Shown here piece after piece: positions 11,444 to 30,400 of a stretch of DNA of 64,000 bases (position 1 is its first letter; each line of letters opens with the position of its first letter). The position numbers and the translations under genes were made by a program. The stretch comes from Salminus brasiliensis (lineage: Eukaryota; Chordata; Actinopteri; Characiformes; Bryconidae), in NCBI RefSeq assembly GCF_030463535.1, contig NC_132891.1:6945122-7009121 (forward strand), written 5' to 3'. The notes under the pieces were generated by a model, which saw only the letters and a list, made by a program, of their open reading frames with translations, searched no databases and had not been told where the DNA came from.

Positions 11444-11873
11444 CCCCCACAGGCACCCCCTGCCCCAGCAGAGAGGCTGAATGTCTGCAGGACATGCTCA
11501 ACTTTTGTCTATCCGTGTCCCTTTATCAACATTAACCTGCGCTCATATAGATGCAGACAACGGCCAGCTCCACACATCAAGCTTTATGACAACAAACAGT
11601 AGCTGTGAGGGCTTACGAGACAGATGATTGCGATCTGGTGAAATAGCGTTGCTCCATACGCGAATGCGTCTGTAGCTTAGAGAGGCATTTATGATCTTAT
11701 ATTTCCTTTGATATTTACTTGATCTTAGATTTACCTTTGTGTCCTTCCACCAGAACATAACGTTCTAGGGGAGTGTGTCCCTTTTCGGTATTTTGGTTTT
11801 ACTTGGAGGTGTTTCTCCTTCTCAGTTCAAATCCCTCCAGTTATTTTGAGATCGCCTCTGAACCTCTGCAGCC

Positions 11874-13421
11874 ATGTGGGAGTTCCGGTCCATGTCTTTC
11901 TGGCGGGCAGTGTTTGCTGAGTTCTATGGCACCATGTTCTTCGTGTTCTTTGGGCTGGGTGCGGCTCTGCGTTGGACCACCGGCTCTCACAACGTGCTCC
12001 ATGTCGCCTTCTGCTTTGGGCTGGCAGCTGCCACCCTCATCCAGTCCATAGGCCACATCAGCGGCGGCCACATCAATCCGGCCGTCACATTTGCCTACCT
12101 GATCGGCTCCCAGATGTCCCTGTTCCGCGCCTTCTTCTACATCTGTGCCCAGTGTTTGGGGGCTCTTGCTGGGGCCGCAGTGCTGTATGGGGTAACACCA
12201 AGCAACATGAGAGGCAACCTGGCTCTTAACACAGTAAGTGAAGGGACTGCTACTGCATTCTCTGTATTCCTGACTTTAAACATGTTGTATCTTTAGGACT
12301 AGTTCAAGACTGTTTCACATTAAAACCAGTGTATTATGTAAATCTTTGGAGCATTTGGCATCATGTCCAATGTATGAATGAGTATGGTTCCATCCCAAGA
12401 GAGAACTGGCCATGACTGTTGTGGGTGTGGATGACCAAACATCATGGCATCAATTGCTCATTCTTTACAGCTTTAGTTTCATAGAACCACAGAGCTATCA
12501 TTATGGGAGCAGAAACACTGAGGCTGACCCTGCTCTATCCATGCGACTTCTTCTCACTAGCTGCAGCCAGGCATCAGCCTGGGCATGGCCACCACCATGG
12601 AGGTGTTCCTCACTCTGCAGCTGGTCGTCTGTATCTTCGCTGTGACCGACGAAAGGCGTAATTCACGTTTGGGCTCTGCTGCTCTGGCAATTGGCTTCTC
12701 TGTGCTCATGGGACATCTCCTTGGGGTAAGAGCAGGGCTGGAGAGACTCTTCCATTGCTCCTATGGGGCTTTCCCCAGACATTGTTAGATAAAGAGATGT
12801 ATTAATATGCTCAAAGACAGTAGAAGTGAATCGAGTCTCAAGTATGAAGTTGAAATCTGTTGCAGATGTACTACACTGGTGCTGGAATGAACCCCGCCAG
12901 GTCTTTCGCACCTGCTGTGCTTGTCAGGAACTTTGTCAATCACTGGGTGAGAAGGTTTTCATGCTTACCATACCTTTACAAAAGAAGGAAAATCACTCGT
13001 TAATGTAATGGCATTTGCTTTTTAAGGTACTTCAGAGCATTTTGGTCTATTGGTCAATCTATCATTAAATGTTCACATAATGTAAAGGACAATTGGAGTT
13101 TTCAAATGGTGTAACCAATTTGTGGAATGATAAAGTTTCCAAATGAGAGAGGAGATGCTTGTATGAGTGTCTGAAATGTTGGAAATCTTATCTTAAAAGG
13201 GTTCCAATATCCAACTTCCTCCCTCTCTCTGACAGGTGTACTGGGTCGGCCCCTTCATCGGCGGCGCAATGGGTGCCCTGCTGTACGACTTTATGCTGTT
13301 CCCACGCATGCGTGGCCTGTCCGAGCGGCTGGCTGTTCTCAAAGGCAACCGTCCCCCGGAGGTTGAGGGCCAGCCAGACACCCGGGGCGAGCCCATCGAG
13401 CTGAAGACACAGGCCCTATAA
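11874..13421 (+). CDS. mip: Major intrinsic protein of lens, aquaporin-0
   Basis: This is the six-helix water channel and cell-adhesion protein of lens fibre membranes. Exons: 11874-12233, 12561-12725, 12866-12946, 13236-13421, all phase 0 with GT-AG introns. Total 263 aa, the same length as mammalian AQP0, beginning [10 protein letters not shown] and ending TQAL. Both pore motifs are present, NPA at residues 68-70 and 184-186. The selectivity-filter residues Phe48, His172, Ala181 and Arg187 are present. The cytoplasmic calmodulin-binding helix ([16 protein letters not shown], from residue 224) is kept. Compared with mammals, Tyr23 is Phe, Phe75 is Tyr, Tyr149 is Thr, Ser229 is Gly and Ser235 is Ala. 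Teleosts have two mip genes, and I do not assign a or b. Confidence 0.97.
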
Positions 13422-20373: not shown

Positions 20374-23300
20374 TTAAGTGCTGAATGTTGACAGAATCTC
20401 CTCCAGCTCCATTTGGTCTTGTGGATCTGGTCTCCTGATAACACAAAGGCAGGTGGGGGCTAACTTACCAAATCTGATATTTGCAGCTGTTATTTACTGA
20501 TGGTAAATAAAATCCCTGAATGAGATGAGATAGAACGGGATAAGATAGCATGCAAAGTGTAGCAACAAAAGAGAAATCAAGTTTAGGTTAATAGTGAGAG
20601 CTTGTGTGCATGTTGTGTGTGGGCATGCGGAGACTCACATGGTTTCATTGTAGAAATGAGGGTAGATTCCTGGCACGGAGGGATCGGGAAATGAGGGCGA
20701 AAACGAGGGTCCAGGAAGAGAAGCAGGACTGTACAAAAAAGAAGCACATATGTAATGACCACGGCTCGAATTACACCTGGGTTTGTCTGGTGATCAGCTG
20801 CTTACGGCCACCAGGGGGCCCCCTAACGACATTTGGGTTACTACTGTACCATTGTGTTGTTTAAAGAGTATATCAGCAGGGTAATTGCAGGGTGTACTAC
20901 AATTATTTTATTTTTTTAAATGCACATTTAGGGGTCAATAACAAGCAGGAGGGGCTTAAAAAGAAGTGGGCAGGGTAGAAAGCAGCCAGTCAGAGACGCC
21001 ATGGTGCCGCTCGCTGCTATGTGATAGAGGGGCAAATTCTCACTATTTCGTCATCAATTGAGGTGGGGTCAGGTGAATAAAGGCATTGTAGCTGCTGGGA
21101 CACAAATGACAGGTCATCTTGGTGTCACCATTTCAATACCAGAGACCGCTGTGATTTGACCAGTGAGCTTATGGTGCTGTGGAAACTGACCATAAGCTAG
21201 AGCTTGGTGTTTGAGGTTAGTTTATTAAAGTCATCATGCTTGTTTTATAACGGCCTTTAGAATCACAGAAACGAGAGACTAGCTGTCTTTAGGCTGTCCT
21301 TCCAGTTTTAGGCTTGGTAGCAGTTGTAGTAAAAAGTAATGCTTACATTTGGAATGGTGGGGCTGAGGCTGGTTCCTGGGGCCTGATGGGAAAAGGTAAA
21401 ATATTTTTAAATATCATTTTTATATATTTTAAAACAGTACAGTAGCTATAAACACTATAGGAAGATGTGTGTGTGTGCTTTTGTGGCCTGGATACACTAA
21501 CAAAAGTGTACATCCGTATATTCTGCAGAATTAACATTTGCCTCGTGAGTCATTGAACCATGTGACCTGATGGAGGCAGCATTAGAAGCGTTTACAGCTC
21601 TCCAGCTGGTCACAATTCTCCAGAGTTTTGTGGAGATTTCTGTTTAGTCAACAGAACATGACCAGCACGACCATGCCTTTAGAGTGAGTAAATGTATTTG
21701 AATTTCTGAATCCCAATTCTTCACTTTTTCTGGATACTTTGATTCTGGTATTTGGTCTTTCTATTGTGTCATGATGAACGGACCAATAGAAACGTTTTAA
21801 AATGACTATGAATGAATATTTTGTTTTGCCATTGACTTTCACTGAAAGTTAAGAAGGTTTTACCTTCTCCTGTAAAGTTGCTATTTTGGAGACACAAGGT
21901 TTTTGCATGACAGTGACAATATGTATGGCATATCTGTGTGGAAGTGTGTGTGTGTGTGAAAGATATTCACAGGCAGAAATCCACTGGTAGTTCAGACTGT
22001 GGCGTGCTGCTCGGGGTGGAAGTGCTGAAACACACCAGAGAGCAGAGTCAATAACACACAAACGCTAATGTAATATACGCCACAAATCCAATCACGCAAG
22101 AACACAGTAAATACAACAAATACATCCGTGCCACGTCTGCCTCAGAGCCTGATCACATCACCATGTCAACTCCATTATATGCTACAATTACATGATTGAA
22201 TTTCGGAGGGCTGGTTTCCAGCGCAGTCCTGCACAAACACACACTTCTAGACCTCATAAGTAACTGTTAAGGGTCTGAATTGGATCAGGTGGTTAGGCAG
22301 GAAATCACTGAACTGTGCTAAACCAGAGCTGAATTCACAGATGCAGCGCTGCAGAAGCAACAGTCAGTGAAACCAGGGACGTGCTTTCAATATCTGCATT
22401 TTCCGTAAACACTGGGGAATTAACAGCTTTAGCAAAACCTAGGAATGTATTGCGAAAAATGAATGTGTGTTCCTAATGTAAAGGCAGGAGCATCCAAACT
22501 GCACAACACAAGACATGTTTGAATATATCCAGACACCTTTTCTCTTCTCATCTGTGAATTTAGCTACTTTATTATATATTGCACCTACTGGTGACAATAG
22601 TGAGAAGGTGTCTACAAACTTTTGGACATATAATGGAAATTTGTGGAAAGGACAGATCTGCCCCCACAAACACCAACAAACCCAAACACTAGGTTCTCAC
22701 ATACCTAATGATTGCTAGGAGACTGTGGAAGGTTCTCACCTATTTAAACTGTTCTAGAATACGGTTCCCCTATTTACACTGTTCTAGAATTGTTGCCCCC
22801 ATCACAATGCTATCAAATGTTCTCACTCATTCACCTTTATCTAAAATGCTTTCTACAACATGCTCTCATCTTCACAATCTTCTAAAACGTTCTCCTCCCA
22901 ATCACACCACTCTAGAACATTCTCTCGCATTTATACTGTTCTAAAATGTTCTCCTCATTTACACTGTTCTAGAACATGCTCGCTAATTGTTACTGTTCTA
23001 GCATGTTCTCCCCATTCACACTCTTCTAGAATATTCTCTTTGTACACTGTTCTAGAACATTCTCATTCATACTGTTTTAGTAGGCGTTAATCCGTTCTAT
23101 AACACCATTCTACAATGTTCTCCCCCATTTACACTGGTCTGGATGTTATTCTTCTATCCATACTGTTCTAGGAGGTTCTCTCTCATTTATAATTTGTCTA
23201 GAACATTCAACCTCTTTCCTCACCAATTCACTGTGTTCTCCTGCATTTACACTGGTAGAATGTTCTCGGGCAGTACAAAGAACATCTTAGAAGAAAATTC

Positions 23301-26300
23301 TAGAACATCTAGAACATTGTAAACATGGTAAACATTCTACCTTTTGTCAGAATGTTCTAGAATGTTCTAGAATTTTCTTCTAAGATGTTCTTTCCCTTTC
23401 ACAATGAATTAAAAACTCTAAAGAACCAAATGAACCATGGTTGAGGACATTCTACAATGTTGTGAATGAGAAAACATGCTCTAGAACATTGCGAATGGGA
23501 GAGAACATTCTGGAAGAAGGTCAGTAGGTAAGAACATTCTAGAACATTACGAAAAATGGAGAACATCATCCCTATTCATATTGTTCAAAAACGTCCTCCA
23601 TTTTTTAAAAGACACTGTTCTTAAATACTAACCCTCTCCTGGAATGTTCTCCCCTGTTCACAATGTTCTACAGCAAGAATGACAAAATCCAGGACTGTGA
23701 ACTGGAATCCAGGTCCAGATTTGAAGACCTGGGTTCTCCAGTGTGTTCTCTCATTTAAAACATTCTAAAAGGTCCCCAGCCATGGTTCATTTGGTTGATT
23801 TGATGGCTGTATTTGCTTTTGTACAGAAAATGTGCTGTATGGATGTTACTTACGGGTCCACAACCATGGTGAGTTTGAATGGCAGGTATCCATCTGCATG
23901 TGGAGGAGACAGAACTGTGGAAAAATACACAGCTTCATTAAATTCCACTGATCAGAACTTTAGCAGTTTTAGGCTCCACATTATATAGATTTTATCAGAA
24001 TAATTTTTCACGCCTAGCTCACTGAAACCAGCAGGGGGATGTGCTGCAGATTCTACCATGTTTGTGTTTTCATACAGAAAAGGGGGTTATTGTATGATGA
24101 TGTAAAGTAACTGATGTGTATACATAAAAATAATGCTGTATACACTGCCAGTCAACAAGAATAGAGGGTATGCACTGCCGTCACATTCCTGCTGGAACAT
24201 GACACGTATATTCGGATTGAGTGGCAAAACCTTCTGCAACACAGCTGCAGTGTTAATTAGTGAAACGGCCAAACCGAGAATGAAAGTTAAAGGCAGCTGA
24301 ACTCCACGACGATCCATCCAAAATACCAAAGAACCAATGGTCCATGGACGTCAATGTCTAGCCAGGAACGTCCAGCTAACTGTGGCTCACATCCCACCAT
24401 TTAGAGGATAAAGCCTCATATCAGAGTGTTAAGTTGAGTGAATGCTCCTGTTAGTGTTTTCCACTGTTTTCAGGCTCATTTAGCAGACTGACTCATCCAG
24501 GTTAGCTTGTTTCCCTCTTACTTGGACTTAGCATGTCCCCAAATTGGCATCTACAGTGTTTTAGTGGCCTTTACACTAACGCTGCCACTGAGTCTTTTTG
24601 CCACGCATGTCCATGGCTGCAGTGACTCCCACCACCTGTGACGTCACATGCATAACCTCTATTGCTTAGCTGTTGTTCTATGTAACGATCACTAATAAAA
24701 GTCCTCTAAAGGTTCTTTTCTGGTCTAGATGGTGGCCTTACACAGCCTAGTCATATTTCTATAATGTTGACCTGAATGAAATGCTTCCCACACATCTCAC
24801 ATTCTTCACTGCTGTCCACACTGCTCCTATAGTGGCTGTATTTTACGTCTTCACACATTTCCAAGCACAGTTTCCTATTTGCTCAGTAGGGCTGAAGTCA
24901 AGGTTTGGCTCTGTTTATTGATCAGAAGTGATCTGTGATTGTGTTCATAAGACAACCACCCACAAAGCTCAAAATCAGCCTCTGAGCTTCCTCACAGCCT
25001 CACCAATTTACAACCTCGCCAATTTACAGCCTCACCAATTTACAACCTCGCCAATTCACTTCACCTCAAGCTCAATTCATCACCATTTAGAATCTTCCCG
25101 CTTAGCCACATTGCTGTGGAGTGTGATTTTTAGTTCATAATATTCTAGAATGTTCTCCCCTTCCTAATGTTCTAGAATGTTCTCCACTTCCTAATGTTCT
25201 AGAATGTTCTCCTCCCATTCACACCATTTCACAATGTTCCTCTCATTCACACTTCTCTATAAGGAGCTCCCATTCCCAGTGTTCTCCCCCATTTATTCTG
25301 TTCTACAACGTTACTGTCCTATTCACACCGTTCTAGAATTGTCTCTCATTCATATTGTGCCAGAACATTCTCCACTTTCCACAATGTTCTAGAATGTTCT
25401 CCCATTCCCAGTGTTCTAGAACATCCTCCTCTACACTGTTTTAGAATGCTAACACCACTCACACTCTTCTAGAATGTCTCCCTCAATATACACTGTTCTA
25501 GTACAACCTCTATTTACACTGTTCTAGTACATCCTCAATTTATACTGTTCTAGAATATTTCCCTCCCATTCACAATGTTCTAGAATGTTCCCCTTCATTT
25601 AGACTGTTCTAGAAGGTTTTCTTCCCATTCACAATGTTCTAGAATGTTCTCCCATTCACAATGTTCTCCTGCTCCCAGTGTTCTAGAACATCCTCCTCTA
25701 TTTACCCTGTCCTAGTACATCCCCCATTTATACAGTTCTAGAATATTTTCTTCCCATTCACAATGTTGGCTAGGTCATCCTCCTCAAAATCCACTGTTCT
25801 AGAATGCTCTCACAATGCACATAATTCTAGAACGTTCCCCTCTATTTACACTGTTCTAGAATGCTCTCACAATGCATATAATGCTAGAATGTTCCCCTCC
25901 ATTTACACTGTTCTAGAATGCTCTCACAATGCATATAATGCTAGAATGTTCCCCTCCATTTACACTGTTCTAGAATGCTCTCACAATGCATATAATGCTA
26001 GAATGTTCCCCTCCAGTTACACTGTTCTAGAATGCTATCATTCCCACTCTTCTAGAATGTTCTTCTAAATCACACTGTTCTAGAAAGTGCTCATGCGTTC
26101 ACACCATTCTAGAATGTCCCCTTCATTCACAATGTTCCAGAATGTTCTACCTTTTACTGTTCTAGAAGGTGCTCATGTGTTCACGCAATTCTAGAATGTT
26201 CTCCTCCTCCACACTGTTCTGGAACATTCTGCCTCTATACACCGTTCTTGAATGGTCTCTTCTAGAATTTTCTGCACCATTTATGCGGTTCTCACACTGT

Positions 26301-27412
26301 TCTTGAATGTTCTCTCTAAATCAGATTGGACAATAGCAGAAAGGAACAGATCTGCTGGAACAGATTCAAAAAACACAGACTAAACAGGAAAAATCCATCA
26401 TGCAATTTCAGATGTTTCAAACATCAACCTTTAAGATGTTTAGTCTGTGTTATCAGGAAGAGGAACATATTCTGGAAGCAAAACCTTCAGTAGCAAAGGA
26501 AACCCACTCTCAAAACAGTGGTGCGTTTATGCCGTAGATGGCTACGTTGCTTCTCTGGCTAACTGCTATAGTGTCCCCAGTGGTATCAGAGTGAAAGGCC
26601 AAGCAAGAAGATTTCCATCTAAGTTAATCTCAGCTGTTGTCCCTTCCAAAGAAAAGTTTAAGTTAAATAGGGTGAATAAACAAGACAGCTGCTCTGGTGA
26701 ATAAACACAACAGCAGCAGAGACAAGTCCGAAAGAAATGGGGAAGCAGAAACAGCACTGAAAACACGCTGATGGCCACATCAGGCCGCATCGGCTATGGT
26801 GTTTAAACGTACCATTTGCTCAACAAGAACCAAGACTGCTAGTCTAACCAAGATATGATAAACAGCAGGGTGTAACACAGGTTTTCTCAACCCAGACCTA
26901 GTGTGTTGAAAATGTGGTCCAGGCGAAAACTGGCCGGACTGTTTGAGATAAATGTGGATAGGGTAATGTTCTAACGCTCCACTGACGGTTTTCAGTGTAC
27001 GCTGTCAACCTCAGAGCAATTACTGACACTAAACCTTAGGCTTTTCTAATAGGAGGCTACCATGGTATCAGTTTACAAACTGGAAAGCCTCATGATAAAC
27101 ATATTTAATTGCAACAGTCAGTTCCACTGGCACAACCTGGTAGGGGATCAGATTGTCAGATTTGATAGCACTCTGATTCACACTAATGCAGGCAGTGCTA
27201 TCAACTTAGGGGCGTCCTATTTCCTTTATTGGTCTGATAAATTATACTGAGCCTGATTCACCAATATCTCCATAAGAATTAAAGAAAGTACTAATAAAAA
27301 AGTCTGCGTCACCTTCATGTTTGTAAAGCACAAAAGTAAAGGTGCACATATTTGTCACTGCACTATGTACAGCGAAATGTGTCCTCCATCCCATCTGTGG
27401 TAGTGAACACAT

Positions 27413-27456
<44 letters not shown>

Positions 27457-30400
27457 GAACTAGGGGCAGGAAGCACACATTCACCCAGAGTGGTGGGCAG
27501 CCAACTCCAATGCCCAGGGAGCAGAGAGGGTAAAGGGGTTTGCTCAAGGGCCCGGGTATCGAACCCACAACCCTGTCATCAATAGCCCAGATCCCACTGT
27601 CCTCGTAAATTGAACAAATTCCACATAAGAAAACACTGGCGAATGTGAGAGTCTTTGCAAAAACCAGCAAGAAATTCCTCTTAAGAACGACTGGTGAAAA
27701 AGGCCCATTATGTGCAAACAGTTAGGAAAACATGAACATCAGATATATATTCAGCCTTAAAATGATCAATGGACCAGTGCAACTGTGTTCTCTGGAATGA
27801 TGATACTCCATCCCACACCTCTGGGATGGCTTGGGGGGTAGGGAATGATGAGGTGGGATGTTGATCATCATCCAACATCCTGACCTCACTAATGCTGAAT
27901 GCAATCAAATCCTCAGAGCAATGCTCCAAAATCTCGCTAACACACTGCCTGGCCTCTCATGTTCTATGCCTACATGAAAGAGTTCCAGGCTGAGCCCTGC
28001 GCGTACTTGCCTGTATAAAACTTCTTAAATACTTCATCCTTTGGCATGTCTGGATACACGTGACTGATGCAGTTGATGTCCCGGATTCGGTCGCCAAGGC
28101 CAGAAGAGTCCAGGTCCTTCTTGGTGAAAGGCTGGATGTTCTGAATTTTCCTGCCTCCACCTGGAGAGAGACAGACATGGCATTCAGAAAGAGAAAAAGA
28201 GAGCATGACGGAGCACATCAGTTTTAAAAGCAAAGGTGCTGACCTGAGGTCAGAAACTTGCAGCACCGCTTGATACATATAAAGTCAGATACACTATATG
28301 TCCAAATATTTGTGGACATCCCTTCTAATGAATGCTTTCAGCTACTTCAAGCTGCACCCATTGCTGACCCAGTGTAAGTTTCTAATAGAACAGGACGCTC
28401 TGGAGCAGATACACATGAACCTATTGGCACTGTGTCTAATGCCAGGTGTGGGCTAGAGGGATATTAAGCCCCCCAGCATTGAGCTGTGGAGCAGTGGGAC
28501 TGTTCTCTGGAGTAATGGTTTGTGCTCCAGCCAATACCTTTGAGATGAGTTGGGGAGTTGGGGATGAGATAGGATGGTGATCATCAAACACCCTGACCTG
28601 CTAAATGCAATCAAATTCTCACAGCAATGCTCTGAAGTCTCAAGTCTTTTTCCCCTTTAGAACAGAGACAGTTACACCAACAAAAACAGCATAATCTATT
28701 TTCAATACCCTTGACTTCAGAATAAACAATAAATGAATACTTCTGTCCATATGGGAGAACACAAAAAGGATAAAATGGCTTTTTTTATAACACATACTTT
28801 CACTGGGGCCCACATAGGCGATGGTGATGCCTCCGATTTCTGAGTCACTGAAGCGCAACAGGAAGGTGCCGTTGGGTTTGTTCTGCAAAATGACATGGAG
28901 GTGCTGCTTCCCGATAAAGCCAAAGATCAGCCTGCAGTGGACAATTAAACATGGATGAATGGCTCTTCCTCAGGCCTTTAGTCAGGACTCTAAACATATA
29001 TCATCGCTGTCATATAAAACCCTCATCTGAGAACACCAGCTTCCGTTTACACTGTGTGATACATGTCATGATGAACAGACTAACAGAAGTGGCCTAAATG
29101 ACTGAAAATTTTATCTTATTATATTAATGCAAACATTCCCAGTTACTACATTACTACAACATTATAGTCCCCAAAGCACAAAACCTACTGGTCACATGAA
29201 TCACAAACTCATTAGCCTGTACTGTGGGGAACGTGGAAGGAGGAAGTGAAGAGTGATATCATTGGTTAATATAATTTTCCCCCATTTTATGAAGTTTTTC
29301 CAATGAAGTGGATAAAAGGAGGGGGCAAGAATTTCGTTTTTTACATGATATGATAATCCATGCTTAATATGACCAATGAGGCTTCCATACCCTTCACTCC
29401 AGTAGGATTTCAGGCACTTTTTGGTCAGGTCAATCACTCCCTCAAACCACTGCCAGAAGGTGAAATTCCGTCCAGGTAGAACTTCCTGTACCACAAACAA
29501 ACATTAAAATGACTTCAAATAATCTCTGGAGTGGTGATAGAAAAATATAGTTAGTTTTCAGTAAAGAAAGATATAAAAATTATATACAGTGATACAGTGA
29601 AAATAATCATAGTATTTGTTGTACACAGTATGTCCAAATGTTTGTGGACGCCCCTTCTAATAAATGCATTCAGCTACTTTGAGCATTGAGCTGTGGAGCA
29701 GTGGAACAGTGTTTTTTTTAAATGATGAATGATGGGAAGAGTTGGGGAGTTGGGGATGAGATGGGATGGCAATCATCCAATATCCTGACCACACTAATGC
29801 TCCTGTCACTAAATGCAATCAAATTCTAAATCTAGTAGAAAGCTTTCTTCCCTGGACTGTAGGGACATTTACTCCAAGAAAAGCAAGACAAACGCTTGTT
29901 AATGCCCTTGATTTCAGAAAAAATAATGAATGAGCAGGTGTCCCAATACTTTTGCTCATATAGTGCATTTAAACTAATTCTATGATTCCAGTATTGCGTT
30001 AATACCACCAAGTTTTGGTCGTAAACAAAACGGGTAAAATCTTAAAAACTGTCCAGTCAGATTTTAGCTAGGCAAGCTTTCCCATTGGTTATGCCTTCAG
30101 AAGCTGCACTGAGGGTCTTAAATTGAATTTGATGGTGAAATCAGCCAGTCATGCAGAGGGTGGGACCTATTTTATAAAAAGTCATCACTCTCAGCTTTCT
30201 GGAAGTTACTACTGTGTTTGTGAAACCCAGTGGTAGCCTTACCAGGATTCAGTCAGCTGCTAGAAATGGAGAACAGTAGTGGCAGCTCTGTATGGGGGCT
30301 CTTTTTTAAAAAAGGGTCACTTTTTGACTTTTTGAGATAATATTAAAATCTGGAAATAGTTTTTTTATGTCGTGTCAAAATTAAATCATGAATGGACCAA

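Follow-up and report, generated by a model that had tools for sequence, protein, structure and literature searches.

A stretch of STAT6 intron sequence densely filled with perfect heat-shock elements (HSEs) raises the question of whether these sites form a heat-responsive device acting on STAT6 or are a by-product of the repeat that carries them. We examined the array in its gene, within the 64-kb stretch of DNA analysed here (the window), and across the genome assembly. In our judgement, with a probability of roughly 80%, the array is explained by an ageing dispersed minisatellite whose founding unit happens to hold a near-ideal HSF trimer site.

The first-pass annotation had described a single intronic satellite at 22726-26310. 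The interval is indeed repetitive and intronic, but masking by unit similarity resolves it into two blocks rather than one array (Table 1), with ~1.46 kb of non-repeat sequence, exon included, separating blocks A and B. The unit is degenerate and ~28 bp long, consisting roughly of CACTGTTCTAGAATGTTCTC plus a spacer. Units of block A are mostly in the + orientation until ~23270 and inverted or mixed beyond that point; those of block B are ~25-30 bp long and have the core TTCTAGAATGTTC. At its inner edge, block A has two nested inverted duplications, candidates for hairpins in either the DNA or the pre-mRNA. The window also contains an unrelated second minisatellite at 725-2642, with ~93 copies of the 21-bp unit ATTTATTAAATTGAGGGAATG at 91% matches.

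Table 1. Coordinates of the repeat blocks, inverted repeats, exon and longest HSE at STAT6 (positions in the window).
Feature	Position	Strand	Remarks
Repeat block A	22732..23666	+	In the intron that follows the exon in gene sense; from unit-similarity mask, unit list and inverted repeats
Repeat block B	25123..26329	+	In the intron that precedes the exon in gene sense; from unit-similarity mask, TRF arrays and unit list
Inverted repeat	23277..23393		Two perfectly complementary 32-nt arms, partly built from repeat units
Diverged inverted duplication	23417..23803		71-nt arms, 79% complementary; inner edge of block A
STAT6 exon	23854..23914	-	61 nt, coding for 20 residues; GTAAGT donor, CAG acceptor; presumed phosphotyrosine exon
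Longest HSE	23350..23377	+	Six contiguous boxes, GAAnnTTCnnGAAnnTTCnnGAAnnTTC; exact trimers overlapping at 23350, 23355, 23360 and 23365

The earlier assignment of the gene to STAT6 held up, as three neighbouring exon readings, joined into one peptide, had STAT6 as their best match among solved structures (5d39, E = 2.2e-44), with STAT5B second (8e-39); the linker exon by itself did not separate STAT5 from STAT6. Repeat blocks do lie on either side of the exon that had been called the phosphotyrosine exon. This 61-nt exon encodes a tyrosine in the motif GYLP, and the role of that tyrosine is presumed from the position of the exon after the SH2 exons and from comparison with the GYVP motif of human STAT6. 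Because the length of the exon is not a multiple of three, skipping it would shift the reading frame. Beyond the 3' end of STAT6, an aquaporin exon (MIP family, E = 1.3e-39) lies at 11862-12296 on the + strand.

Exact copies of TTCnnGAAnnTTC and GAAnnTTCnnGAA number 17 and 5 in the window, and every one of them starts within 22726-26310. The interval thus holds the starts of 22 exact three-box HSEs and the rest of the window none, close to the twenty or so counted by eye in the first-pass annotation, whose example sites at 25143, 26050 and 26189 are all among them. The final one (26300-26312) overruns the end of the array as first drawn by two bases, leaving 21 wholly inside. If a trimer HSE is defined by three or more nGAAn boxes that alternate in a 5-bp register, the STAT6 array carries genuine ones. 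The sequence TTCTAGAA, contained in the DNA on which HSF1 was crystallised (PMC8379338), has 34 copies in the array and a single one in the rest of the window. A weight-matrix scan, which had been proposed as a check, points the same way: with the published human HSF1 matrix and the threshold of 9 recommended with it (PMC9148306), 31 sites were found in the array and 5 elsewhere in the window, and at scores of at least 12 these numbers were 17 and 0.

First-order Markov versions of the array contained on average 0.04 exact trimers (maximum 1 in 500 versions) or 0.06 (maximum 1 in 200), similar to the 0.03 that had originally been expected by chance. Such small figures are no measure of surprise, because the HSEs of the array descend from one amplified unit and are not independent. 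For an exact trimer within one 28-bp unit, our own arithmetic gives a chance of ~2 in 10,000, with the sites of other factors uncounted. Other types of motif are equally rich in the array: TGTTCT, which we take to be a steroid-receptor half-site, occurs 67 times versus 4.4 in Markov versions, and RCATTCY, presumably TEAD-like, occurs 35 times versus 2.4. The repeat multiplies whatever motifs its unit holds. STAT-type sites, considered as a possible means of autoregulation, were rejected, as neither TTCnnnGAA nor TTCnnnnGAA occurs in the array (expected 1.1-1.2).

We searched the genome assembly (1.07 Gb, 103 contigs) for further copies of the unit. The 15-mer core TTCTAGAATGTTCTC occurs 1,023 times (462 + 561), and its reversed control 2 + 0 times. 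Contig C1 (99.4 Mb) accounts for 72 of the first 100 listed core matches, which by eye form 14 clusters between 3.2 and 97.5 Mb and extrapolate to roughly 150 such places genome-wide. We fetched 20 of the 23 clusters among the matches listed, and all 20 places contained related arrays, with periods mostly of 26-30 bp and at times of 31, 36, 43 or 48-49 bp. Their blocks span ~0.2-2.4 kb, save for a single piece of 130 bases close to where one fetched stretch ends. A looser pattern, TTCTAGAANNTTC, has 3,711 matches in the genome versus 1,038 for its reverse, an excess of ~2,700 to which this family may contribute. The CACTGTTCTAGAATGTTCTC family is accordingly a short tandem unit present at many unlinked places, and the STAT6 array belongs to this dispersed minisatellite family.

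The same searches touched on further arrays. At G000:C1:8654021-8654938, TTCTAGAACGTTC sites recur every 57 bases in another array, be it of this family or not, and on contig C5 of the same genome an identical 27-mer (TCATTTACACTG followed by TTTTAATCATAGATC), apparently from another repeat, has eight copies over 4.7 Mb (32.77-37.48 Mb) among the matches listed. Outside the genome, a 21-mer of the family matched no stretch in viral contigs, and an exact 19-mer was found twice in cyanobacterial contigs, which by our own arithmetic is about chance level for 257 billion bases.

If the HSEs were a selected cluster, their boxes should be better kept than their spacers. Places found by core matches were chosen for an intact core and are unfit to judge box retention, so we searched with flanks only and left the 13 core positions free. 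A group was dropped as unrelated unless its consensus agreed with the core at 8 or more of the 13 bases, a rule that treats boxes and spacers alike. In sample 1 (pattern CCATTCACACTG-N13-TC; 240 matches, control 2, first 100 of the 240 used), 20 of 32 groups were family-like and 12 groups, representing 13 of the 100 places, were dropped. Retention was 141/180 (78.3%) for box columns and 66/80 (82.5%) for internal spacer columns, with three exact boxes in 2 of the 20 array consensuses and in 8 of 87 units. In sample 2 (pattern TCATTTACACTG-N13-TC; 114 matches, control 14, first 100 of the 114 used), 28 of 65 groups belonged to the family, the STAT6 array among them, and 37 groups (38 of the 100 places) were dropped. 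Here boxes were kept at 214/252 (84.9%) and spacers at 86/112 (76.8%); three boxes were present in 5 of the 28 consensuses and in 14 of the 62 units.

Pooling samples 1 and 2, with an array common to both counted once, gave 47 arrays in which box retention was 348/423 (82.3%) and spacer retention 150/188 (79.8%), and seven of the 47 consensuses had all three boxes. The bootstrap interval of the difference (0.025; 47 arrays, one genome) runs from -0.04 to 0.09, which leaves room for boxes to be ahead by as much as 9 points; the comparison is among paralogous arrays of one genome rather than among species. Sample 3 (pattern CCATTCACAATG-N13-TC; 24 matches, control 4) yielded 11 family arrays, three of them seen before, with 84/99 box columns (84.8%) and 39/44 spacer columns (88.6%) kept and three boxes in 2 of 11 arrays; 11 of the 24 places were dropped, and these matched the core in at most 4 bases, while retained ones matched in at least 9. 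The sign of the difference thus varies by sample, sample 2 favouring boxes and samples 1 and 3 favouring spacers, and the three samples together show no preference for boxes over spacers. Boxes decaying as fast as spacers between species had been named in the first-pass annotation as one half of what would refute its reading, and within one genome that half is what the comparison shows.

Details of individual columns and arrays are similar. Of all columns, the G of the middle GAA is kept worst (29 of 47 arrays), although its change is heavily penalised by the HSF1 matrix; in some arrays the trimer is nearly lost: one (L025) has 35 copies of TTCTAGAA and another (L026) has 33, each with a single three-box site. 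Among the 57 units of the STAT6 array, the third-box columns were kept in 41, 41 and 45 units versus 44 and 47 for the next two non-box columns; the retention of the first two boxes cannot be judged here, as the units were picked by them.

Several known systems resemble this family in part. Dispersed minisatellites (VNTRs) likewise have units of ~28 bp in small arrays at many places with degenerate edges, but here the common unit holds a consensus HSE and many unlinked arrays share one core. In C. elegans, 61.4% of HSEs (11,527/18,766) are located in Helitrons (PMC6927752), and the HSE arrays of Caenorhabditis Helitrons are also clustered, tandem, dispersed and present in introns, with TTCTAGAA among their sequences (PMC6927752, PMC4039745). 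However, HSF-1 binding is shown for those arrays and the likeness here is one of motifs, with no element ends found. The satellite motif Mo34 of Pristionchus pacificus, GAACATTCTAGAAG, also repeated in tandem, is itself an exact three-box HSE (PMC3634726), although it stems from another phylum and by eye has no evident homology past the HSE; the words 'heat shock' do not appear in the main text of that paper. Human satellite III, the classical HSF1-controlled satellite, is also a tandem repeat bearing HSE-like boxes, but it has a 5-base unit in pericentric heterochromatin and reported HSF1 control (PMC9032817), whereas the arrays described here are small, dispersed and known from their sequence. 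In terms of motif content, the Caenorhabditis HSE Helitrons and human satellite III are the closest precedents. In the titles and abstract openings listed by searches of the open-access literature, we found neither this sequence nor any fish HSE satellite.

How the family spread bears on one alternative, namely that a mobile element such as a Helitron with an internal tandem repeat carried it and that the ends of the element have decayed beyond recognition. The presence of one unit at many unlinked places would fit such a history, as would the precedent of HelitronY4_CE in C. elegans, which has a 40-base tandem repeat with TTCTAGAA (PMC4039745). Against this, 62 array flanks (up to 400 bp each, from the 20 places and the window) contain no common sequence even at sensitive settings, with no sign of a shared element or common ends; sharing among them is limited to flanks of adjacent blocks that overlap each other, a single local duplication (at L039) and matching stretches, 26-53 bases long, that lie at varying distances. 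Array edges fade gradually (e.g. at L032). The inverted arms of 23417-23803 at STAT6 were rejected as element ends, because their end sequence CCAAATGAACCATGG has only four exact places in the genome, two of which are these arms themselves; the arm sequence is local and no dispersed element. Also rejected as a vehicle was the sequence at 28287-28730, which is found at a distance of 0.3-3.5 kb from arrays in several of the fetched places but is an abundant independent repeat. This stretch is one member of an abundant dispersed repeat with about nine further matching stretches within the window. We consider spread by a mobile element unlikely.

A device specific to STAT6, in which heat-induced HSF binding at the array alters how the phosphotyrosine exon is spliced in or nucleates a stress body, appears highly improbable. 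It would draw on the position of the blocks on either side of the exon and on the frameshift that skipping of 61 nt would cause, but the unit is present at many unlinked places, the boxes are not preferentially kept and the blocks are small. Looping of the RNA across the exon was rejected as well, since in a gene-sense fold (run without a shuffle control) the helices of at least 8 pairs that enclose the exon are all short, with 9-16 pairs. As for stress bodies, the satellite-III-like nucleation that had been suggested is unlikely given small blocks spread along chromosomes: no large block of the pericentric kind was seen, the fetched blocks reaching at most ~2.4 kb and the C1 clusters among the matches listed being scattered over the range given above.

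A different possibility is that HSF1 in heat-shocked cells goes to intact arrays, that of STAT6 included, and that the family is a genome-wide sink or a source of ectopic enhancers with no array selected. The 31 matrix sites, many scoring 12-13.5, the genome-wide excess of TTCTAGAANNTTC over its reverse and the binding of Caenorhabditis Helitron HSEs by HSF-1 (PMC6927752) speak for it, but three boxes are kept in only a minority of family units (8/87 and 14/62), and we regard it as unlikely. As a yardstick we used three intronless hsp70-type genes (L043-L045), taken from among eight full-length hsp70-type open frames that cluster at ~32.04-32.08 Mb of contig C12. They have 3, 1 and 3 matrix sites 0.8-0.9 kb upstream of the ATG, with scores of 9.1-9.9, and no exact three-box site (a trimer of the TTCTAGAAnnTTC type) upstream.

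The minisatellite reading would run as follows. A founding unit of about CACTGTTCTAGAATGTTCTC plus spacer, usually 26-30 bp, would by chance have held a near-ideal HSF trimer; tandem duplication and unequal exchange would have multiplied it in the two STAT6 intron blocks, as at many other places in the genome; and mutation would then wear down boxes and spacers equally, so that single arrays come to hold many variants, some with intact boxes and some without. Neutral amplification would be the cause. Two findings count against this reading, namely the better retention of boxes in sample 2 taken alone and the HSF1 scores of the array, which exceed those of the hsp70 upstream sites in the same genome. 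Nevertheless, since the sites belong to a dispersed family and decay about as fast as the intervening bases, they look more like a side effect of repetition than like a switch by which heat acts on STAT6. That a repeat core merely resembles an HSE was the simplest alternative offered in the first-pass annotation, and it is favoured by the 1,023 core copies and the unpreferred boxes; selection for HSEs or a STAT6-specific design is not supported. From the motifs, it is very likely that HSF1 would bind array sites in vitro, and it could perhaps bind intact ones opportunistically after heat, although such binding need not have any effect on STAT6.

As it stands, the array is a caution on motif counts inside repeats: a tandem repeat makes dozens of 'perfect sites' from one chance motif, and the count within an array is thus no evidence of function. 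A bolder and rather improbable view is that near-consensus HSF sites number in the thousands in this genome, that many of these sit in repeats and outscore the sites upstream of its hsp70 genes, and that on heating HSF1 would be drawn to intact intronic arrays including that of STAT6, forming a sink or an ectopic layer of the heat response, a vertebrate parallel that arose independently. If this were true, HSE-cored tandem repeats would have arisen repeatedly in animals, as in worm Helitrons, Pristionchus Mo34 and human satellite III. What deserves experiment is the load of HSF sites across the genome. Worm Helitrons and human satellite III have already raised the question of whether HSEs carried by repeats sequester HSF1 or rewire the genes around them, and this genome would be a natural testing ground for it if HSF1 occupied the arrays.
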